A DNA stretch of 64,000 nt from Clostridia bacterium (GTDB lineage: Bacteria > Bacillota > Clostridia > Oscillospirales > CAG-272). How positions within the stretch are numbered: position 1 is the stretch's first letter; every line of letters starts with the position of its first letter. A program made the translations under genes and the position numbers. Positions 47,814 through 63,015 of this stretch are shown in pieces. The notes under the pieces are model-generated. The model was not told the origin of the DNA and did no database searches. It was given only the letters and a program-made list of their open reading frames with translations. The stretch is taken from positions 1-64,000 of the forward strand of contig JAFVXH010000017.1 in NCBI GenBank assembly GCA_017501225.1, written 5' to 3'.

Positions 47814-49481
47814 TCAGGACACTACGATGTCCACAAGTCCCTCGTATTCCTCAAGGCTGGTTTCACCCGAGAGGACGCGCTCCTTGGTGTGACTGAGCAC
47901 CGTGGTCATATCGCGCTCGACGATCTCGCCGACCTTCTCACTCGTAAAGTCGTCCGACATCAGAATGTTTCGGATCTCATCGTTCAGAACCATGATCTCA
48001 AATACACCGATACGGCCAAGATATCCGGTCTGATTGCAGTAAGGGCATCCGACAGCGTCGAAGATCTCTGCCTTTTTGTGAATGCCAAGCATCTCCATCT
48101 CTGCCTTGGTGGTCATGCGCGCGCTCTTGCATTTGGGGCAGAGCTTACGCACCAGACGCTGGGAGATGGCACCCAGGAGGGAGTCGGCAACCAGATATTT
48201 CGGAATTCCCATATTGACCAGACGCGTGATAACGCCCGCCGCGTCGTTGGTATGGATGGAGGAAAGCACCAGGTGTCCCGTAATTGCGGCTCTCGTTGCG
48301 ATCTGCGCGGTCTCCTCGTCACGGATCTCACCGATCATAATGACGTTGGGGTCCTGACGGAGGAAACTTCGCAGGGCTGCGGCAAAGGTCAGTTGCGCCT
48401 TGGGGTTGACCTGTACCTGATTGATGCCCTCGATCTCGTTCTCCACGGGATCCTCGACCGTCATGATGTTGGTATCCTCTTTATTCAGGTGACGCAGGAA
48501 GGTATAGAGCGTGGTACTCTTACCGCTTCCCGTAGGACCTGTCAGGAGGATGATGCCGTGAGGACGGGAGATCATGCTCATGACAAGCTCGGTCTGCTTC
48601 TCGGAAAAGCCGAGAGAGGACATGTCTCCCGAATGGAACTGTCGGTTGTAGATACGGATTACGATCTTTTCTCCGTGAATGGTCGGAATGGTGGAAACAC
48701 GGAAATCGTAAGGAATTCCGTTCACCTCCATGCTGATCTTTCCGTCCTGCGGAACGCGGCGCTCCGCGATGTTCAGATCCGCCATGATCTTGTAGCGCGC
48801 AAGCAGGGCGGGGAACATATGAGGCGCCAACTCCTCGATCTTGTTCAGCTTTCCGTCGATGCGGAAGCGCAGATAGATCGTTTTATCAAAGGGCTCGACG
48901 TGGATATCACTCGCTCCACGGTTGATCGCGTCCCTAAGAATCGAGTCACAAAGCTTGATGATGGGCGCGTCAATGGGCGTGCTTGTGTTGCTCGCCTCGG
49001 TGATATCGGTGTTGGACTTGGAATAGTCGGTCAGCACGATATCCTGCTGGATCTTGTTGTTGGCATAGTCCAGGATGCGTGCCATCTGCGTGGGAGGGCT
49101 GATGATGAACTTCAGCTTCTTTCCGCCATGAGTTAAAAACTCACGGAATTCCTCCACGCGGAAGGGATTGCATCCGATGACGGTCAGAACGTCGCCCTGC
49201 AAGGAAAACGGAACACCCTGGTATTGGATCAGAAGATCTCTGGGATATTGCTTGACGAACTCCAGATTGATCTCGGAGAGCTGACAGAAGCGGTATTCAT
49301 ATCCCAGAAAATCGGCAAGCATCCGATACAGCGGCTCCTCCTCCAGGATCTCGCCGCGAAACAGCTCCAGGTAGATGGGAGAGCCTGCGGCGTCGGATCT
49401 CTCCAGCCACTCAGTGGCGAGCTCCGGGCTCAACGCCTGCTGTTCTACTAAATAATTGGTAAAAAGTCGGTTAAAAATCAT
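47814..49481 (-). CDS. pilB: Type IV pilus assembly ATPase (PilB/GspE family)
   Basis: A 555-residue ATPase with an N-terminal GspE-N domain, Walker A GPTGSGKSTT at about residue 314, Asp/His boxes, and a four-cysteine zinc site (CPKCK near 449, CPYC near 480). This is typical of extension ATPases. It powers pilin polymerisation from the cytoplasm. It is the last gene of the T4P cluster. No PilT-type retraction ATPase is in the window. Confidence 0.96.
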   Translation of the reverse strand: MIFNRLFTNYLVEQQALSPELATEWLERSDAAGSPIYLELFRGEILEEEPLYRMLADFLGYEYRFCQLSEINLEFVKQYPRDLLIQYQGVPFSLQGDVLTVIGCNPFRVEEFREFLTHGGKKLKFIISPPTQMARILDYANNKIQQDIVLTDYSKSNTDITEASNTSTPIDAPIIKLCDSILRDAINRGASDIHVEPFDKTIYLRFRIDGKLNKIEELAPHMFPALLARYKIMADLNIAERRVPQDGKISMEVNGIPYDFRVSTIPTIHGEKIVIRIYNRQFHSGDMSSLGFSEKQTELVMSMISRPHGIILLTGPTGSGKSTTLYTFLRHLNKEDTNIMTVEDPVENEIEGINQVQVNPKAQLTFAAALRSFLRQDPNVIMIGEIRDEETAQIATRAAITGHLVLSSIHTNDAAGVITRLVNMGIPKYLVADSLLGAISQRLVRKLCPKCKSARMTTKAEMEMLGIHKKAEIFDAVGCPYCNQTGYLGRIGVFEIMVLNDEIRNILMSDDFTSEKVGEIVERDMTTVLSHTKERVLSGETSLEEYEGLVDIVVS

Positions 49482-49493
49482 GTGACGTTCTCC

Positions 49494-50699
49494 TTAAATG
49501 GTGTTCATCAGCGACATCATGGGCAAAAGCACCGAGAGAATAACCACGGCAACGATGGCACCGAGGATCAGGATCATCATAGGCTCCAGCGCGGCGATCG
49601 CCTTGGCGATGCTGGATTCGACGCACTCGTCGAAGTAGGAGCTTGTGGAGGTAAGCACCTCCTCGATGTTTCCGCTTTTTTCTCCGACGTCGATCATTTC
49701 GGTCAACATGGTGGGGAAGAGCCCGGTCGCTGCCAGGGAGGGCGCGATCCTTCTTCCGCGCTTGACCTCCTCAATGGTATAGCTGAATTTTTGGCTGAAC
49801 ACGGCGTTTCCGAGCATACGCTTGAGGTTTTCCAGACAGTCCACCATGTTCATTCCGCTGCCGAGCAGGATGACGAATGCCTTGGAAAAGCGGGAGGTGA
49901 TGAGGTTTTGCTGCACCTTACCGATCAAGGGCATATGGAACAGCAGAAAATCCTTGACGTACTCTCCCTTTTTGGTTTTGAAGAACAGGAAGACCGCAAG
50001 CAGAAGGACAGCCAGTATGGGAAGGATGATGAAGATATAATCCTGCATGAATTGGGAAATGTCCATCAGGATCCTCGTGATCTTCGGCACGTCACCGCCC
50101 AGCTCGTTGATGGTCGATTCAAACTGCGGCAGGACAAAGAGCGTGACGAACAGAAGGACCGCAAACACCATGACAAGAAGGAGGACGGGGTAGACCATCG
50201 AGGACTTTGCCTTTTTCTTGATCTTTCGGTCGTTCTCGTAGTAATCCGCCATGCTGGCAAGCACTCTGTCAAGTGATCCGCTGGCCTCACCGATGGCGAC
50301 CATGCTGATAAAGAAGCGTGGGAAGACCTTGGGATGCTTTGCAAACGCTTCGGAGAGCAAAACGCCCGACTCAATGTCAAAGTAGACGGCCTGCAGGACG
50401 TTTTTGAAGGGCGTGGTGTATTTTTGCTGGCGGAGGCTGTTGATGCTGTCGCCGATCGGAATTCCCGCCTTTACCATAACGGAGAATTGGCGCAAAAATC
50501 CGATGACCTCGTCCGGCTTGACCTTACTGCTGACTGCAAAAAATTCACTTTTCTTTTTTTCCTTGATGAGCGTCACCTTCATCGGATAAAACTTATCCTT
50601 TTTCAGCTCCGCGCGCAGGCTGACCTCGTCGCCTGCCTGACGCGTCAGGTGCTGCTTTTCACCAAGCGCATTTAAGACGGTACAACGGTACAGAGGCAT
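49494..50699 (-). CDS. pilC: Type IV pilus platform protein (PilC/GspF family)
   Basis: A 401-residue protein with two GspF domains and three membrane spans (about 165-195, 218-238 and 372-398). It carries GFLRQFSVMVKAGIPIGDSI and FVILLGSGMNMVDCLENLKR, the paired F-domain motifs. It anchors the PilB ATPase at the membrane. Its start abuts the stop of the prepilin peptidase gene. I used ATG 50699 because a purine-rich site (AAGGTGG) precedes it. Confidence 0.95.
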   Translation of the reverse strand: MPLYRCTVLNALGEKQHLTRQAGDEVSLRAELKKDKFYPMKVTLIKEKKKSEFFAVSSKVKPDEVIGFLRQFSVMVKAGIPIGDSINSLRQQKYTTPFKNVLQAVYFDIESGVLLSEAFAKHPKVFPRFFISMVAIGEASGSLDRVLASMADYYENDRKIKKKAKSSMVYPVLLLVMVFAVLLFVTLFVLPQFESTINELGGDVPKITRILMDISQFMQDYIFIILPILAVLLLAVFLFFKTKKGEYVKDFLLFHMPLIGKVQQNLITSRFSKAFVILLGSGMNMVDCLENLKRMLGNAVFSQKFSYTIEEVKRGRRIAPSLAATGLFPTMLTEMIDVGEKSGNIEEVLTSTSSYFDECVESSIAKAIAALEPMMILILGAIVAVVILSVLLPMMSLMNTI

Positions 50700-51499
50700 T
50701 AAAGCACCACCTTCCAATAAAAATCAAGTATCGCGTTCCCGTAGATCGCCATCACACCCATGCCGAGCAAAAGGTAGGGACCGAACGCGATTTCGCTTTC
50801 CTTGTCTTGCTTTGAGAGCTTTATTTTTGCAAGCTCGATCACGCTGCCCGTCAGTGTGGCGATCAGGATCGCAAGAAGCAGGGGGAACGCGCCGAGCGCA
50901 AGGCCCCCGATGCCGACGAGCCAGATATCCCCCGAGCCGAGGGCGTCGCGCTTGAGGAGCATTTTGGAAACCAGCGCGACAAGACCGAAAAAGCCAAAGC
51001 CGAGCGCGGCACCTCCGACGAAGCTCCAGGGAGATTCTCCAAAAGCGAAAATGCGCCAGAGCGCTACAAAGAGCGCGATGACGCCGAACAAGATCAGCGT
51101 AATATTATAAATATCGTGTGTTTCGAAATCAATGGCTGCCATGACGAGGAACAAAAAGACCGTCAAAAGCAGGGCGATCAGGATCGGAAGCTCCTCCACG
51201 GTGTTTCCGTACATCCAATAAGCGGAGAAGAAGCCAAGACCGCCAAAAATCTCGCACAGCAGCGAGAAAACACCGATCTTTGCGTGGCAGTTGCGGCATT
51301 TTCCGCCTAAAATCAGCCAGGAAAGGATCGGGATATTATCGTAAGCCTTGATCGGCGTTCGGCAAGCGGGGCAAAAGGAGTCGGGCTTGACGATCGACTG
51401 CCCCTTTGGCACGCGGTAGGCGACCACGCCTGCAAAGCTTGCAAAGACCGCGCCGAACACGAATGCAAAAATCGAGATCAGAATTTTGGGATCAGGCAT
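50699..51499 (-). CDS. pilD: Prepilin peptidase (PilD/TadV type)
   Basis: A 266-residue aspartic protease with about eight membrane spans. It has the N-terminal methylase zinc Cys pairs (CPACRTPI, CRNC) and the catalytic aspartates in AAIDFETHDIYN and GSGDIWLVGIGG. It cleaves and N-methylates the pilins encoded upstream in this locus. Confidence 0.95.
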   Translation of the reverse strand: MPDPKILISIFAFVFGAVFASFAGVVAYRVPKGQSIVKPDSFCPACRTPIKAYDNIPILSWLILGGKCRNCHAKIGVFSLLCEIFGGLGFFSAYWMYGNTVEELPILIALLLTVFLFLVMAAIDFETHDIYNITLILFGVIALFVALWRIFAFGESPWSFVGGAALGFGFFGLVALVSKMLLKRDALGSGDIWLVGIGGLALGAFPLLLAILIATLTGSVIELAKIKLSKQDKESEIAFGPYLLLGMGVMAIYGNAILDFYWKVVL

Positions 51500-51692
51500 T
51501 TTCGTCCACCTCCGCGGTCACGGCAGCTGTAACGGCAGGGCGATAGACCTCGTCCCGCAGATCCTCCAAGCCGCGCTCAGTCAGCTTTGTGTAGCGGTAA
51601 ACCACCGAGAAGGTCGACACGATGCTCAGGCTCATCACGAAGGTCAGGATCAGAACGATGGCGAGCACGTAGCCCTTTTGAGATTGCTTCAT
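51492..51692 (-). CDS. Small PilX-like pilus-associated membrane protein
   Basis: A 66-residue protein: a short basic N terminus (MKQSQKGYVLAIVLILTF), one hydrophobic helix and a charged tail. It resembles the first 60 residues of PilX/minor pilin proteins but has no further domain. It overlaps its neighbours on both sides (8 and 4 bases), consistent with tight coupling in the T4P operon. Confidence 0.7.
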   Translation of the reverse strand: MKQSQKGYVLAIVLILTFVMSLSIVSTFSVVYRYTKLTERGLEDLRDEVYRPAVTAAVTAEVDENA

Positions 51693-52117
51693 TGGTATCT
51701 CCCTCCTCCGTAATTCAGTTGATCAATAATCACACGCTCACTCTCGACGTGGCGGACGCTGATGATCAGCTCCGCATGTCCATCGCCGTTGGTGTCGGCA
51801 TAGGAATAGGACAGGCAGTAGACCTGCTCGGTCGTCGAGGGGTGAAAATTGTAGCCGTAGTAGATATTGCCCTCGTCTTGTCTGTTTTCGAGGGAGAAAT
51901 AGTGCTCATCCCAGTCGCGCCCGTACTCGTCACCGAAGAACGCGATGTCGGAGCAGATCATCTCAAAGCGCAGGTATTCCTCCTGGCGCGCCACGGTCTT
52001 TCGCATGACCAGGAGCGAGGAGAACATTGCCACCGAGATGATGGAAAACACGGCGATGGCAACCAGCACCTCGACCAGTGTCGTTCCTTTTTTTACGTTT
52101 GCGGTGCGTCTGATCAT
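51689..52117 (-). CDS. Minor pilin (prepilin N-terminal motif)
   Basis: A 142-residue protein with a type III prepilin signal (KKGTTLVEVLVAIAVFSII, Glu5 conserved after the cleavage Gly). The C-terminal globular region is beta-rich and Tyr-rich. It is a likely minor pilin or pseudopilin, cleaved by the prepilin peptidase encoded two genes downstream. Confidence 0.85.
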   Translation of the reverse strand: MIRRTANVKKGTTLVEVLVAIAVFSIISVAMFSSLLVMRKTVARQEEYLRFEMICSDIAFFGDEYGRDWDEHYFSLENRQDEGNIYYGYNFHPSTTEQVYCLSYSYADTNGDGHAELIISVRHVESERVIIDQLNYGGGRYQ

Positions 52118-53328
52118 ACCGGTCTTGGGAAGAGCTGGGGCACTAGCCCGTGCTGCTGAGAGAGGGCATCGATCAGAACGTAGGCACCGTCCTGACGGAA
52201 TCTTGTGGAGATGCGATAGAGGCAGGGTGTGCTTTCAAAGCCCTTTCGCTTACTCAGGGCGCACTGATAGCGCGTGTTCCGATACTGATTTGCGTCGATG
52301 GCGAGATACAGACAGACGCGAGGGCCCTTGATGTCAAGACGGGCGTAGACGCGGTTATTGACGTGAAAGACTGCCGCCTGCTCGGTGATCTGGCAGCGCA
52401 TGCCGTCATAGGAGAGCAGCTTTTCGGCAAGCTTTGCGTATCTGCGCTTGAGAGAATCGGGAGAAGCGGAATGTCGCTCGGAGAAGGTCGTGCCGTAGAT
52501 CTCGTCGTTCTCGATCTCCAGATCGATCTCCTCGTCCTCCAGCACCTTTTTGTCCACCTTTTCCTCGGGCGTGCCGTCGGGAGCGATCAGCTTCTCCTCG
52601 GTATCGGCGAGGCCGAGATCGAGGGTGATCTCCTCGTCGGATTCGACGTGGAAGCGTTGGATCTTCTTATGCGAGAGCTCAAACTCGTGCTTGGAAATGA
52701 CCAGCAGGAATTGGCTGACGAGATCGCGCTCGTTCTCAAAGGGGAAATCGTAGACGGTGACCAAGGATTTGTTGATGACGAGCAACAGCGTGCAGACCTT
52801 TTTGCAGATATAGAAATAAGCATAGGCACCGCCGTAGTTCAGCGATTTTTTCAGGTGGAAGCCGAGGGGCTCGACCACGCGGATCTTGGTGCCAAGCAGC
52901 TTTGCGAGGTTTCCAAAGGCGTCGATGACGTGCTTGGGCATAAAGTAGGTGTTGTAGATATAGCCCAGGGAGTGGTGGAAGCAGTTGGACGTGATGACGT
53001 AGTTGGGATTGACCTTTGCCGCTTTTTTCTCCTTGGAGAACAGAGCATCCGCCGAAAAGCGTCCCATGGCGGGGAGGGTAAAGATGCTCTTATAGGTTTC
53101 CTCACAGCGCAAAAGCAGCGTGATGGGCGGGATTTTTTTATCTCCCACCTCGTATTTGATGCGGTCGGCGATTGCCTGAAGGTTTTTGGGGACGCCGTCC
53201 TCCATCAGGTAGTCGTCCAGCTCGATCATCAGGTTGCGCGTGGTGGATTTTTTATCGGCGGGGATATAGAGCTTCAGATATCCCGATTGGTAGTTGCAAA
53301 ATTCTAAGATACAGGTGTTTTGACTCAT
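52114..53328 (-). CDS. PilM-position protein with a shared C-terminal domain
   Basis: A 404-residue soluble protein in the place where PilM usually lies. The N-terminal 240 residues have actin-like/PilM features in outline (TCILEFCNYQSGYLKLY start, LLLVINKSLVTVYDFPFENE), but I cannot confirm PilM motifs. Residues 240-290 are an acidic linker. Residues 295-390 align with the cytoplasmic tail of the surface protein at 60199-63015. Compare RVCLYLAIDANQYRNTRYQC with KTLYLYLALDPSELEGTKYG. No PilN or PilO is found. It overlaps the next gene by 4 bases. Confidence 0.7.
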   Translation of the reverse strand: MSQNTCILEFCNYQSGYLKLYIPADKKSTTRNLMIELDDYLMEDGVPKNLQAIADRIKYEVGDKKIPPITLLLRCEETYKSIFTLPAMGRFSADALFSKEKKAAKVNPNYVITSNCFHHSLGYIYNTYFMPKHVIDAFGNLAKLLGTKIRVVEPLGFHLKKSLNYGGAYAYFYICKKVCTLLLVINKSLVTVYDFPFENERDLVSQFLLVISKHEFELSHKKIQRFHVESDEEITLDLGLADTEEKLIAPDGTPEEKVDKKVLEDEEIDLEIENDEIYGTTFSERHSASPDSLKRRYAKLAEKLLSYDGMRCQITEQAAVFHVNNRVYARLDIKGPRVCLYLAIDANQYRNTRYQCALSKRKGFESTPCLYRISTRFRQDGAYVLIDALSQQHGLVPQLFPRPV

Positions 53329-53343: not shown

Positions 53344-53727
53344 TTACTTCCTTCCCGCCACAAAGCGGTAGGATTTGTTGGGAAGAACTAAAATACAATA
53401 TATAAGATTAGAATTCTCGTCGTCCGAGAACTGAATGTCCAAAATTTCGGTGTCCGACACGATCACGGTATCGTGATGGGAAAGGGTTTTGTCTTCGGGG
53501 TTTATTTTATAATCGCTTGATGGGTTGGATGTGTGCTCCTGTTGCAGGATATATCTTTTGACGGTTTTGATGCGATAACCCTCGGAGCCCTGCCGTATGA
53601 GCTCGTCTGTGGAGAAGGTGATAAAGAACAGGGTACTGATGATCATCGAGATCGCCAGCGTGGCGCAAACCATGGCAACGAGAAGCTCTACGAGTGTAAA
53701 GCCGGATTGTTTTGACTTTTTTCGCAT
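53344..53727 (-). CDS. Minor pilin (prepilin N-terminal motif)
   Basis: A 127-residue protein with the prepilin signal SGFTLVELLVAMVCATLAIS and a short beta-rich C terminus. I used the ATG at 53727, which has GGAGGT upstream. The frame to 53832 runs into repeated DNA. It is first in the machinery part of the T4P cluster. Confidence 0.85.
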   Translation of the reverse strand: MRKKSKQSGFTLVELLVAMVCATLAISMIISTLFFITFSTDELIRQGSEGYRIKTVKRYILQQEHTSNPSSDYKINPEDKTLSHHDTVIVSDTEILDIQFSDDENSNLIYCILVLPNKSYRFVAGRK

Positions 53728-54089
53728 CGCGCGCGACCTCCTTTTCGGTTTGGTGTTGTTGGTATGGAGCGTGGGGTGGCGTACGCCGTTTGCGCGAAGC
53801 GCAACATCATTTGCCCGCAAGGGCAACATCATTGGGCAAAGCCCACATCATTTGCCCGCAAGGGAACATCTCTGCCTCTGCCCGTGTCATCCTGAGCGGA
53901 GCAAATCGCGCGGCGATTGCGGAGCCGAACTTTTTCCACCGAGATCCCGAATGTCGCTATGCTCCATTCGATCCTCGCAGGCTCGGATTTCGGCTGCGCT
54001 CAGGATGACACGGTGGAAAAAGTGCGAGGCTTGCCGAGCAGGATCTCGGGCGAATAGAACGCAGGGGAGGGCTGATGTTTTTGCCCCAT
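53728..54089. repeat. Repeat-rich intergenic region with MITE-like inverted repeats
   Basis: Positions 53804-53823 and 53845-53864 are 20-base direct repeats with a related unit between them. Perfect 17-base inverted repeats lie at 53882-53898 and 53997-54013, starting CCGTGTCATCCTGAGCG. A nested 13-base pair lies at 53929-53941 and 54011-54023. The pattern fits a short non-autonomous mobile element. No gene is supported here. Confidence 0.6.
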
Positions 54090-54172: not shown

Positions 54173-54688
54173 TTAGTTGAACTTGATGGTTGCGGTAGAG
54201 CCGTCGGTGTAGGTGTAGGTGATGACACCGTTTGCATCAACTGCGAAGGTGCCCTTTAAGCCTGCAAAATCAGCGTTTGCAGCAAAAGCAGCGGTGAGGC
54301 TAGTATTTGCGGGGCATACAGTTACAACAGCCTCGGACCAAGCTTCCTCGTTGACGTCAGCGGTTTCTGCATTATCAACTGCGGTGCAGGTGATTACGCT
54401 GGTGTAAACCTTGTTGTCAGAAGCCTTTACAAAGTAGGTGGTCTTGGTGACGTCAATTGCAACTGCGTCAGCGGACTGAACAGTACCGATGACGAAATCG
54501 TTGCCTGCCATCAGCTCGGCGTTGATTGCCTGCTCGACCTGCTTTGCTTCGGTGGTAGCATTGGACTGATTTGCCTTATTGATGAAAGCAGTGTATCCGA
54601 CAACGGATACGGTTGCGAGAATTGCGATGATTGCGATAACAACCAGCAACTCAACAAGGGTAAAACCCTTTTTCTTCATGGTTTTCAT
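54173..54688 (-). CDS. Major pilin candidate
   Basis: A 171-residue prepilin. The leader is MKTMKKKG. The mature N terminus begins FTLVELLVVIAIIAILATVS, and the remainder is an Ala/Thr/Val-rich, low-lysine globular domain. It has its own consensus promoter and terminator, which suggests high expression. The first 43 residues are almost identical to those of the larger gene upstream. The ATG at 54688 has AAGGAG upstream. Confidence 0.92.
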   Translation of the reverse strand: MKTMKKKGFTLVELLVVIAIIAILATVSVVGYTAFINKANQSNATTEAKQVEQAINAELMAGNDFVIGTVQSADAVAIDVTKTTYFVKASDNKVYTSVITCTAVDNAETADVNEEAWSEAVVTVCPANTSLTAAFAANADFAGLKGTFAVDANGVITYTYTDGSTATIKFN

Positions 54689-54762
54689 TGGTTTGTTCTC
54701 CTTAATAAAATTTATAGGAACGCTTACTGTTTTCATTGAAGCGACTCCATATCATTGTTTTT

Positions 54763-54918: not shown

Positions 54919-56187
54919 TTACTTTGTGATCGTAACTACGCCGTTTGCAATGACAACTGTGCAGCCTTCATTGCACAATGCTTTCCACTCATCAACTGTG
55001 TCAAGCTCTTCAAAAGCAACACCATTGAACGTACCGCCGGTAACAATAATGGTTTCATATTCGCTGGCGTCTCTCAAAGTGAAGATACCGCCGCCATTTA
55101 CATTAGTAAATGTGCCGCCCTTAACCTCAATCTTACCGCCGCAAGCTACGATGGGATTATATGTGTTATTACCACCGGTATACGTACCACTCTCAATGAT
55201 CAGATTGTTTTGACCAACATGGCCTACTTCTCCGGTTTCTTCGTTGGTGTACTCAAGATTGCAGCTCCAAACACAACGTCCCTTGCTGTTAATGGTTGTG
55301 TTTTTGAGAACGACCGTTGCACTACCGCTTGCATAGACAGCGAGGTCTTCAGCATTAAACGTAGCGTTATCAACCGTGGTGTTACCTGCAAAGACAGCGA
55401 AGCCGTCCTTATTGGTATTGAAAACTGTATCATTGATGAATACGGTGGTTCCTACTTCGGTCTGAATAGGCGTGTTCACAACGTCGCCGTCAGCATCAAC
55501 GAAAGAGCCAGCGGCACCGATGACACCACCGTTGATGGTAACAGTACCCTTGAGGACATTAATGGGGATCTCGTCATCCAAAACGCCGTTGGTGCTCAGA
55601 GAAGCATTGCCCAGGTTAAGGGTAACGTTTGCGCCGTCGGTGTTGAAGGTCAGGAGATTCTCCTTGTCCAAAACAAGGCTCGTATCGATATGGAACTCAC
55701 CACCCGCAGCAAGTGCGGCTGCAATATCAGCAACATCGGTGATCATCTTTTCAACGGTATAACCTGCTGCTTCAATTGCAGCTACCTTGGACAAATCACT
55801 AACTGCGAAGTGCCAGTCTGCCTTATTAGCGCTGGGCTCGGTTTTGCTGAAGAGAACCTTGAAATCGCCATCAACAAGGAGAATCTGATTGTTTGCCTTA
55901 TCCCATACGAAGTAGCATCCATTAGTCTTGGTGTTAAGGTTAGCAAGATAGAAGCCGTTCGCGTAAAGCGCATCCTTAACGTCATCAAAGCTCTTGATAG
56001 GATCCGTTACGTTTGTTGCTTCGAGAAGAGTGTTCAACTCGCCTGCGATTGCCGTGTCGTTAGAAATGTTAGCCTTGTTGATGAAGGTGGTGTATCCTAC
56101 GATGGATACGGTTGCGAGAATTGCGATGATTGCGATAACAACCAGCAACTCAACGAGGGTAAAGCCCTTTTTCTTCATGGTTTTCAT
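54919..56187 (-). CDS. Pilin with a predicted beta-helix body
   Basis: A 422-residue protein. Residues 1-43 are a prepilin leader and helix nearly identical to the major pilin (FTLVELLVVIAIIAILATVS). Residues 45-150 form a mixed linker. From about 150 to 405 the sequence is a chain of short Asn/Gly/Thr/Val-rich turns (NTTVDNATFNAEDLAVYASG, KIEVKGGTFTNVNGGGIFTL), typical of right-handed parallel beta-helices. Such an exposed body is unusual for a pilin and could give an adhesive or enzymatic tip. It has no catalytic motif I can identify. Confidence 0.88.
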   Translation of the reverse strand: MKTMKKKGFTLVELLVVIAIIAILATVSIVGYTTFINKANISNDTAIAGELNTLLEATNVTDPIKSFDDVKDALYANGFYLANLNTKTNGCYFVWDKANNQILLVDGDFKVLFSKTEPSANKADWHFAVSDLSKVAAIEAAGYTVEKMITDVADIAAALAAGGEFHIDTSLVLDKENLLTFNTDGANVTLNLGNASLSTNGVLDDEIPINVLKGTVTINGGVIGAAGSFVDADGDVVNTPIQTEVGTTVFINDTVFNTNKDGFAVFAGNTTVDNATFNAEDLAVYASGSATVVLKNTTINSKGRCVWSCNLEYTNEETGEVGHVGQNNLIIESGTYTGGNNTYNPIVACGGKIEVKGGTFTNVNGGGIFTLRDASEYETIIVTGGTFNGVAFEELDTVDEWKALCNEGCTVVIANGVVTITK

Positions 56188-60198: not shown

Positions 60199-63015
60199 AT
60201 GAAAAATCAACGCATGAAACAAACGCAAGGTGCTCGATTCGCTGCGGTTGCCGTCACTTGCATGATGGTTGCTCTGCTCATCGCATGCTTTGCAATTCCT
60301 ACGTTTGCCGCAAACGGCGACGTTCAGGTCGACATTGGAAAGAATCTCGATTTCTCGGGTTCTTCTCTGACACTGGACAGCGGTGTTTACGCCAAGGAGT
60401 ATGACGGCACGGCCGCAGTCACGGGGATCGTGGCAACGGCGGAGGCACTCACGGGTGTTGCCGCGGGTGACGAGGTCGCTCTGAAGGTAGAGAAGGCCGA
60501 GTTCAACAGCGCAACCGTTGCGGACGCAAGCGAGCTTCGCGTTTATCTGAGCCTTACGGGCAAGGATGCCGCCAAGTATACGGTTGCCGAGTATATCAGC
60601 GTTTCGGCAAAAATTCTGCCCAAGCAGCTTTCCTTTAGCGGAAATGCTACGGCACAGGCTACATACCAGCCCACCAATCCGACGTATGCGTCGCTCGCAG
60701 TTGAGGATCTGCCCCTTCTGGTGGATGCGAACGGTGCTACCGTAGCGGGTGTTCAGTACACGATAGGCACACTGAATCTGCAGGCAACCGCGGCGGGTGA
60801 TTACACCGTAAACCTTGCGGTCACCCTGAGTGACCCCAACTACACTGCAGCTCCTCTGCCCGTGGTCGTTACGGTAAAGCCCCTGGCTCTGACCTCCGTT
60901 CAGTGGAAGGCGCAGGACAGCTATGAGTACGGCGATACCGCTGCGAACGCGCTTGCAGCGTTCGGCTATGACGCAGAGGGTAACGAGTATGCCCTGGCTG
61001 TCATTTATCCCACTAACTACGGTCACGCCACCACCTATACCGTAACCGCGCAGGTCAGCGATCCCAGCCTGATTCTGGAGACCGACGGCGCGACCAAGAC
61101 GGTTGTCATCACCAAGAAGACCTACACCGTTTCCTTTGAGGATGCAAGCTACCTTGCAACGGCTCCCGGCTCTGCGAACGTGCAAACGTACGCGCTGAGT
61201 GTGAAGGGAAAGGTTCCCGCCGACGTTTTGGCGAAGGTCACCTATACCGTCAACGGCGCTCCCTTTGCGGGCACCGCGACCGTCGGAACCTATACTGTAA
61301 CTGCAACGCTTCCCAAGTCCATCAACTATAGCTTCGTGGATGCAGAGGGCAACGCTGTCACCGCCATGACTGCAACCCTTTCCGTCAATCACGGATATCT
61401 TGCCGCAGGCACTGACGGCAGCACGCATGAGGTTATCGTAACCGCGCAGGGCGGTGTTCCCGTAACGGGCAGTGTTACGGTAAGTGTTCCCACGGATCTT
61501 GCCCGCAAGGCAATCAACGGTCTGCGCCGTTACGACGCTTACACCGTACAGGTCAGCGGCATTGACGGTGCTTATAGCATTACGTTCCCCATCGCTGATT
61601 TTCTGTACGCAAAGGGCTTTAAGAATCTGGATGCAAGCTGCATCTATCTGTACGATGCCGCAACCGGAACCCGCGTCCGTCTGACCGAGGCAACCGGCTA
61701 CACGGTAACGGTAGAGGGTGGACGCGTGCAGATCGACGGCGTTGCCGGCAGTGAGGCGCGCACCTTTATCATCGCTCCCATCTACGCAACGCCCTTCTTC
61801 CTCAGCGCACCCGGCATCGCTCTGATCCTGCTTGTCGTGCTTGCGATCCTTGCATGGATGTACCTGACCGGAAAGAAGCTGCGCGAGGATCTGAGAAAGC
61901 GCAATCCCGTGATCGTCATCGACACCGAGGGTAGCGTTCCCGAGGTGACACCCGAGGAGCAGCCCGAGCTGGTTGACGTAGAGGAAGCTTTGGACGAAAC
62001 CATGGATGAGATCGCCGAGGTCGTGGAGGAGGAGCTTGCTCAAAAGACCGAGGAGAACACCGAGGATGTCAGCGAGCTGGTTGCGGAAACCATGCAGGAG
62101 CTGATCGAGGAGGCGGAAGCCGAGGCGGCTGCAGAGGAAATGGCTGCAGAGGAAGAAGCTGTGGAAGCAGAAGAAGTCGTAGAGGATACTGCGGAGGCAG
62201 CCATCGTACAGGAGGCTCCCGAGGCAGTTCAGACGCTTGCAAATGCCGAGGAGGAATCCGAGGACGAGGACGAATCCGACGGCGAAGGCGATTCCGATGA
62301 GGAAGACGGCTTTGACGGATTTGGCCCGATGCCCGACAGCTTCACCGATGCGATGGAGGATCCCGAGGCATACGCCGCACTCCTGGCAAAGGAGAGCGCA
62401 GGTGAGGTCCGTCTGGTTACCCGCTACAAGAGAAGCTTCCGGTCCCGTCTTGCACAGTCGCAGGGCAACGTTCAGGAATATTACAGCGCGATCAAGAACG
62501 CACTGCTTGCAAACAAGGGCGTTAAGGCACGCACCAGCTGGAACTATGAGGCGTTCAACAAGGGAAGAGCGCACGTCGCAAAGATCAATGCAAAGTCCAA
62601 GACCTTGTATCTCTATCTGGCGCTGGATCCCTCTGAGCTTGAGGGCACCAAGTACGGCTTTGTGGACGTTTCCTCCAAAAAGAAGTACGCAAGCGTTCCC
62701 GTCCTGATGAAGATCAAGGGCGATCGCAAGTTCAAGCACGCTCTGGAGCTGATCGAGAAGCTTTGCCGTGAGAAGATGGAGCTTCCCGCTCTCGAATTGC
62801 AAAACAACGATTATACGATCCCGTTCCAGACCACCGAGGAGCTGGTTCAGGCAGGCCTTGTCAAGAAGATGGTCGGAGCCGTTCCTGCGTTCCTTTACGG
62901 TCAGACGGAGGCTCCCACGCAGGAGAGCACCGCTTCTGCTGCGGTTGAGCAGGCAGAGGTGAGCTTTGTCGCCCCCGACAACGCACCCGCCGTTGATGCC
63001 GCTGCCGAGGAATAA
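60199..63015 (+). CDS. Exported YDG/MBG-repeat protein with one membrane span and a conserved cytoplasmic domain
   Basis: A 938-residue protein. A signal peptide ends near FAIPTFA (about residue 38). Residues 40-310 hold YDG/MBG-like beta repeats (YAKEYDGTAAVTGI, FSGNATAQATYQPTNPTY), then further beta-rich extracellular regions. One membrane helix lies near 531-555 (IALILLVVLAILAWMYL). An acidic Glu-rich linker covers about 575-735. A C-terminal domain of about 110 residues starts near 741 (RYKRSFRSRL). That domain aligns with the protein at 52114-53328. Topology: outside repeats, cytoplasmic C terminus. Function unknown. It is expressed alone. Confidence 0.88.
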   Translation: MKNQRMKQTQGARFAAVAVTCMMVALLIACFAIPTFAANGDVQVDIGKNLDFSGSSLTLDSGVYAKEYDGTAAVTGIVATAEALTGVAAGDEVALKVEKAEFNSATVADASELRVYLSLTGKDAAKYTVAEYISVSAKILPKQLSFSGNATAQATYQPTNPTYASLAVEDLPLLVDANGATVAGVQYTIGTLNLQATAAGDYTVNLAVTLSDPNYTAAPLPVVVTVKPLALTSVQWKAQDSYEYGDTAANALAAFGYDAEGNEYALAVIYPTNYGHATTYTVTAQVSDPSLILETDGATKTVVITKKTYTVSFEDASYLATAPGSANVQTYALSVKGKVPADVLAKVTYTVNGAPFAGTATVGTYTVTATLPKSINYSFVDAEGNAVTAMTATLSVNHGYLAAGTDGSTHEVIVTAQGGVPVTGSVTVSVPTDLARKAINGLRRYDAYTVQVSGIDGAYSITFPIADFLYAKGFKNLDASCIYLYDAATGTRVRLTEATGYTVTVEGGRVQIDGVAGSEARTFIIAPIYATPFFLSAPGIALILLVVLAILAWMYLTGKKLREDLRKRNPVIVIDTEGSVPEVTPEEQPELVDVEEALDETMDEIAEVVEEELAQKTEENTEDVSELVAETMQELIEEAEAEAAAEEMAAEEEAVEAEEVVEDTAEAAIVQEAPEAVQTLANAEEESEDEDESDGEGDSDEEDGFDGFGPMPDSFTDAMEDPEAYAALLAKESAGEVRLVTRYKRSFRSRLAQSQGNVQEYYSAIKNALLANKGVKARTSWNYEAFNKGRAHVAKINAKSKTLYLYLALDPSELEGTKYGFVDVSSKKKYASVPVLMKIKGDRKFKHALELIEKLCREKMELPALELQNNDYTIPFQTTEELVQAGLVKKMVGAVPAFLYGQTEAPTQESTASAAVEQAEVSFVAPDNAPAVDAAAEE

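Follow-up and report, generated by a model that had tools for sequence, protein, structure and literature searches.

A predicted PilM/GspL-like pilus protein with a family-restricted basic domain in a PilN-less operon of an uncultured Clostridia bacterium

We analysed a window of 64,000 nt from the genome of an uncultured gut-type Clostridia bacterium (G000, 95.5% complete), and focused on P0002, a 404 aa protein encoded within a type IV pilus operon (52114..53328 on the minus strand, stop codon included). We propose, with a probability of roughly 0.7, that P0002 is a reduced cytoplasmic adaptor of the PilM/GspL type for the PilB ATPase, working in an operon that lacks PilN and extended by a lineage-specific basic accessory domain. 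This reading rests on the gene order in five genomes, the predicted fold of the N-terminal core, the absence of a transmembrane (TM) segment and the lack of a detectable PilN.

The pilus operon lies on the minus strand, and begins with a large modular prepilin of 422 aa (54919..56187), a major-type prepilin (54173..54736) and a minor prepilin (53344..53832), all with an N_methyl motif. In the last of these, the true start is probably internal, given that the motif spans residues 40-64 of the ORF as listed. P0002 follows, and its stop codon is overlapped by the ATG of another minor prepilin (51689..52117; N_methyl, with weak GspI/ComGF similarity). The operon is completed by the PilD prepilin peptidase (50699..51499), the PilC/GspF platform protein (49494..50717) and the PilB/GspE-type extension ATPase (47814..49481; T2SSE and MshEN). 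The 422 aa prepilin has a C-terminal part with weak similarity to beta-helices of the pectate-lyase type (PF12708, 8e-4). Like the Com (ComG) pseudopili of Firmicutes, the operon is a small set of motor, platform, prepilins and peptidase without PilN and PilO, but it differs in encoding a PilM-like protein, in its prepilin set and gene order, and in falling short of the NCBIfam ComGA and ComGB cut-offs.

Searching genome contigs with P0002 alone recovered no loci, whereas a two-sequence alignment query recovered two. Full-length orthologues (43% identity) are encoded in genomes G203 (CANBDB010000088.1) and G391 (JAFULR010000013.1), and in these genomes as well as in G429 and G470 the P0002 orthologue occupies the same slot between the same flanking prepilins. 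PilB, PilC, PilD and prepilins are encoded together with the P0002 family throughout; the operon is whole in the window, G391, G429 and G470, and is spread over two contigs in G203. Outside the operon, the relatives have flanks unlike those of the window. These comprise a choloylglycine-hydrolase-family gene (L062:8311-9366, plus strand; CBAH 6.5e-92) and, at L062:15656-17079 (plus strand), dipicolinate synthase subunit A with a flavoprotein-family gene after it.

The C-terminal part of P0002 is shared with a second protein of the window, P0001 (938 aa; 60199..63015 on the plus strand), which is not a pilus gene product and consists of a signal peptide, a YDG-repeat ectodomain, a TM segment (~533-551), an acidic linker and the domain. 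By BLASTP, residues 278-399 of P0002 pair with residues 743-865 of P0001 at 24% identity and 49% positives with one gap (E=2e-8), which places the domain at residues 278-400 of P0002 (52129..52497, minus strand; pI 9.7) and at residues ~743-865 of P0001 (62425..62793, plus strand). A preliminary description of this locus had aligned residues 295-390 with about 750-850, and those ranges prove accurate to within a few residues. The same description proposed an HMM-HMM comparison; comparing two pilus copies with five of the P0001-like type, hhalign returned a probability of 97.7 (E=1.5e-12, 103 columns). A profile was also seeded with 11 other copies of the domain, leaving out P0001 and every pilus copy. 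Amongst 1147 six-frame ORFs of the window, this profile matched only P0001 (8.8e-49) and P0002 (6.5e-18, 61.1 bits), and the top score from 1000 shuffled versions of the P0002 domain was 6.3 bits. The homology between the two regions is real and lies well above chance.

No known family accounts for the domain. Pfam searches with 14 domain copies at E<=5 yielded one chance match (DUF6252) and nothing else, NCBIfam gave no credible match for the domain in P0001 or P0002, and PDB sequence searches with the domain returned nothing significant. The suggestion of an uncharacterised domain common to two envelope-related proteins is upheld. Its proposed intracellular location is also very probably correct, because P0002 has neither signal peptide nor TM segment and the P0001 copy follows a TM segment and basic residues.

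The source genome holds exactly four copies of the domain by whole-genome search, each in a different architecture. Besides P0002 and P0001, the hosts are a protein of 836 aa with two TM segments, an acidic linker, the domain and a uL15/L18e-like C-terminal domain (PF00828, 2.8e-7), and a protein of 750 aa with DUF5305, a TM segment, an acidic linker and the domain. Within the family, the domain is carried by 33 of 35 genus genomes and extends to several further genera; samples of 285 genomes of the order and 299 of the phylum yielded no copy beyond the family, and no relatives occurred amongst viral contigs or plasmids. The only recognisable pilus proteins amongst the domain-bearing ORFs examined were P0002 and its orthologues. 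Judging from these searches, the domain is an undescribed, family-restricted module that is also attached to several unrelated membrane proteins of the family. A dedicated link between the domain and type IV pili, as first envisaged, is rejected on this distribution, as window-type PilC is present in just 2 of the 35 genus genomes.

Two features of the host proteins deserve mention. One ORF of genome G244 contains three tandem domain copies joined by long linkers of the EEVVEE type (L086:649-3300, minus strand). This host, together with L037:2625-5132 (minus strand), L088:55-2520 (plus strand) and L003:775-2541 (plus strand), ends in a uL15/L18e-like ribosomal-protein domain, with Pfam PF00828 E values from 2.8e-7 to 6e-14 and TIGR01071 matches below the cut-off. 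All four are membrane or acidic-linker proteins that carry the accessory domain.

The domain was basic in 14/14 copies checked (pI 9.3-9.9), and an acidic linker precedes it in the host sequences read. In structure comparison, the domain model (pLDDT 69.7) came nearest to YdhG/DUF1801 (Z 7.9 and 7.7), the MotA C-terminal domain (6.8 and 6.5), an uncharacterised NMR structure (6.7) and YjbR (DUF419; 6.4). These neighbours are suggestive of a frataxin-like or double-wing-like fold, a resemblance within the range of chance, as Z values of 6-8 can be reached by unrelated folds and the best Foldseek E value for the model was 0.014. YdhG/DUF1801, YjbR and MotA are stand-alone proteins or DNA-binding factors, whereas the accessory domain is a linker-tethered module, and no Pfam sequence match at E<=5 connects it to YdhG/DUF1801 or YjbR.

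The same properties raise the possibility of a tether: by binding nucleic acid or partners associated with the ribosome, the domain might anchor both the base of the pilus and the remaining membrane hosts to them, while the acidic linker competes intramolecularly. The uniformly basic copies behind acidic linkers, the presence of the DNA-binding MotA domain and of YjbR amongst the top neighbours, and the uL15/L18e-like C-terminal domain of several hosts (PF00828 down to 6e-14) are all consistent with such a role. Yet the binding is putative, the model is of limited confidence with Z values that unrelated folds also attain, YdhG is described as frataxin-like rather than as a DNA binder, and several basic positions seen in other copies (RKxKxALEL) are lost from those of the pilus proteins. 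We therefore regard nucleic-acid or ribosome binding as a tentative and somewhat unlikely explanation, and favour the accessory domain of the proposed adaptor being, most likely, a contact or localization module.

The evolutionary history of the pilus protein bears on whether this module matters to the pilus. The orthologues of G429 and G470 are only ~245 aa long and end before the acidic linker (residues 231-277 of P0002, 43% D+E; 52498..52638, minus strand) and the domain, in an operon that is otherwise identical and leaves no remnant space. Both genomes belong to the genus of G203 and G391. In a tree of PilB, PilC and PilD, the two genomes with short orthologues group together (1.00) as sister to the two with long ones (0.98), and the window genome branches outside them (0.99); a single loss of the domain is consequently the simplest account. 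Judged by these two syntenic orthologues without it, the accessory domain is dispensable for the pilus machine.

The domain could also be regarded as a neutral passenger: recombination would have fused a mobile module, specific to the family, to P0002 without giving it a role in the pilus. Its loss in one lineage and its abundance in unrelated proteins of the family would fit this idea. Between genera, however, the domain of the pilus orthologues is 52-54% identical and the core 42%, which points to constraint on the domain where it is present. Moreover, genome G203 (99% complete) has kept the pilus copy as its sole copy of the domain, with no partner copy elsewhere. The better conservation of the domain and its retention in G203 suggest that, where present, it is probably useful by itself, and a mere passenger is distinctly unlikely.

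The N-terminal core of P0002 (residues 1-230; 52639..53328, minus strand) is conserved in 5/5 orthologues (alignment A7). None of the sequence profiles used (Pfam, NCBIfam TIGR01175 and PDB sequences) detects PilM in P0002, and the curated PilM model TIGR01175 has no match to P0002 or at its locus. This blindness of sequence methods agrees with the report that PilM, the cytoplasmic domain of GspL (GspL-cyto) and BfpC are homologous in structure, with little if any homology at the sequence level, and that GspL binds GspE (PMC4471445). An AF2 model of P0002, built from a 3-sequence alignment, had a mean pLDDT of 46.8, with about residues 1-160 mostly at 50-86. Its predicted order of secondary structure is that of actin-like lobe I, a 1C/SHS2 insertion and the start of lobe II.

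Foldseek comparison of this model with the PDB placed GspL-cyto, PilM or FtsA in all 18 rows at E<1e-3 and in the next ten (5.3e-6 to 9e-3), and the rows beyond these 28 were unrelated (E>0.04). The best match was GspL bound to GspE (4pht_X, 5.3e-6), followed by PilM (1.3e-5) and FtsA (2.7e-4). VIA-align ranked PilM first (5eou_B, Z 10.3 over 161 residues), with GspL and FtsA both at 8.9 and generic actin/Hsp70 rows at ~6.5. Over residues 1-~170 of this model, of low confidence overall, PilM, GspL-cyto and FtsA rank first, in keeping with an actin-like fold with the 1C/SHS2 insertion. As no other family was significant, the predicted fold identifies P0002 as a relative of PilM, in agreement with the earlier assignment of the gene to the PilM position.

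A complete second lobe is apparently missing from P0002. The short orthologues are complete proteins that end at ~residue 245 and could accommodate no more than the start of lobe II, which suggests that most of this lobe, including the portion of the nucleotide site that it contributes, is probably missing; this absence is judged from length and from a region of the model with low pLDDT. A hydropathy scan revealed no hydrophobic or TM segment in P0002, and so no counterpart of the TM and periplasmic parts of GspL. Residues 1-~165 are like PilM of type IVa pili in predicted fold (Pseudomonas aeruginosa 5eou/5eoy; Thermus thermophilus 2ych), and both proteins are cytoplasmic and encoded next to pilD, pilC and pilB. 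P0002 differs from type IVa PilM in having no significant sequence match to it, in the apparent lack of the nucleotide-binding second lobe, in having no detectable PilN partner and in its extra C-terminal domain. The cytoplasmic domain of GspL/EpsL from type II secretion (4pht, 1yf5, 5tkw), the top Foldseek match, has the PilM-like fold at a similarly reduced size (entries of 224-238 residues) and binds the secretion ATPase GspE. GspL runs on into a TM segment and a periplasmic domain, whereas P0002 is soluble and runs on into the linker and basic domain.

The significance of the FtsA structures in both comparisons (Foldseek 2.7e-4; VIA-align Z 8.9) could indicate an FtsA-like core through which P0002 couples the pilus to the cell-division apparatus. 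We consider this very unlikely. Both structure comparisons place PilM and GspL ahead of FtsA, all five genomes have the gene within a pilus operon, and the nucleotide lobe of FtsA is apparently absent.

In seven other small pilus operons, the slot of P0002 is taken by a second PilM-like family, A6 (~400-490 aa, with an acidic insert and no accessory domain): L035:9835-11301 (-), L040:6376-7683 (-), L042:7806-9068 (+), L043:10551-11774 (-), L044:10940-12145 (-), L045:10352-11560 (-) and L046:11460-12695 (-). The A6 hosts are genomes of the order that have small pilus operons and in which PilN was undetected. The A6 member at L043 matched TIGR01175 at only 0.004, below the cut-off, and PDB sequence searches with both PilM-like families gave nothing significant. 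By hhalign, the P0002 core and A6 were collinear, but not significantly related (probability 0.2). We considered whether the accessory domain might be a leftover of PilM lobe II that A6 retains, and rejected this because hhalign found no relation between the domain and A6. Next to some A6 genes lies a small protein (L045:11564-11938 (-), L043:11778-12131 (-), L042:7414-7839 (+) and L035:11305-11772 (-)) with a prepilin-like N-terminus (KG, a hydrophobic stretch and an early Glu). No N_methyl match was seen in the single member scanned; the protein is possibly an atypical minor prepilin.

The preliminary description had noted that the locus lacks recognizable PilN and PilO, and a scan of nine window proteins, those of the operon included, gave no match to a model of either. 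For PilN (PF05137), the absence extends genome-wide to G000, G203, G391, G429 and G470 and to seven further genomes with small operons, giving 0/12 in all, while the same search found matches in G258, a genome of the order, and in 2/14 control genomes. In G258, which belongs to a different family of the order, the match lies in a 509 aa reading frame (G258:C18:27055-28533, minus strand) whose first part fits the PilM model and whose later part fits PilN (PF05137, 1.2e-12), a PilM-PilN fusion. TIGR01175 matches other than the G139 slot-mate and the G258 and G278 proteins of PilM type lay outside the pilus loci examined and covered model columns ~145-325, and were taken for generic actin-like ATPases.

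The accompanying idea that P0002, through its extra domain, replaces PilM, PilN and PilO together fits the genome-wide absence of PilN and the position of P0002 in the PilM slot, but is extremely improbable: the domain cannot stand in for PilN and PilO, since the domain-less ~245 aa orthologues occupy the same operon in genomes (G429 and G470) that also lack PilN, so that domain presence does not track PilN absence, since PilN and PilO are membrane proteins that work at the outer face while P0002 lacks any TM segment, and since seven other small operons have neither the domain nor, by genome-wide search, PilN.

We therefore return to P0002 as a reduced adaptor. By analogy with GspL-cyto, whose docking of GspE is established for type II secretion (PMC4471445), the P0002 core would dock the N-terminal region of the PilB ATPase at the PilC/prepilin complex. 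Because lobe II is probably missing, docking would proceed without ATP, and no PilN/PilO ring would take part in it. The separate, lineage-specific basic domain on its acidic linker makes up the C-terminal ~120 residues. The PilM-PilN-PilO trio is described as specific to type IVa pili and as essential in the monoderms studied (PMC6916266), so that a PilM-like protein without PilN represents a departure.

At the speculative end, and at long odds, a type IV pilus may run with a one-lobed, nucleotide-free relative of PilM and without PilN and PilO, to which the adaptor of some species adds a nucleic-acid- or ribosome-binding domain serving as the family's general tether between membrane and cytoplasm. 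The roles of PilM, PilN and PilO were named as an open question in a 2019 review, which cites monoderm pili that need all three (PMC6916266), and whether these proteins drive pilus assembly or merely align it is unsettled. The combination of PilB, PilC and a putative half-PilM without PilN, kept in two genera, represents a small natural test of PilM acting alone.
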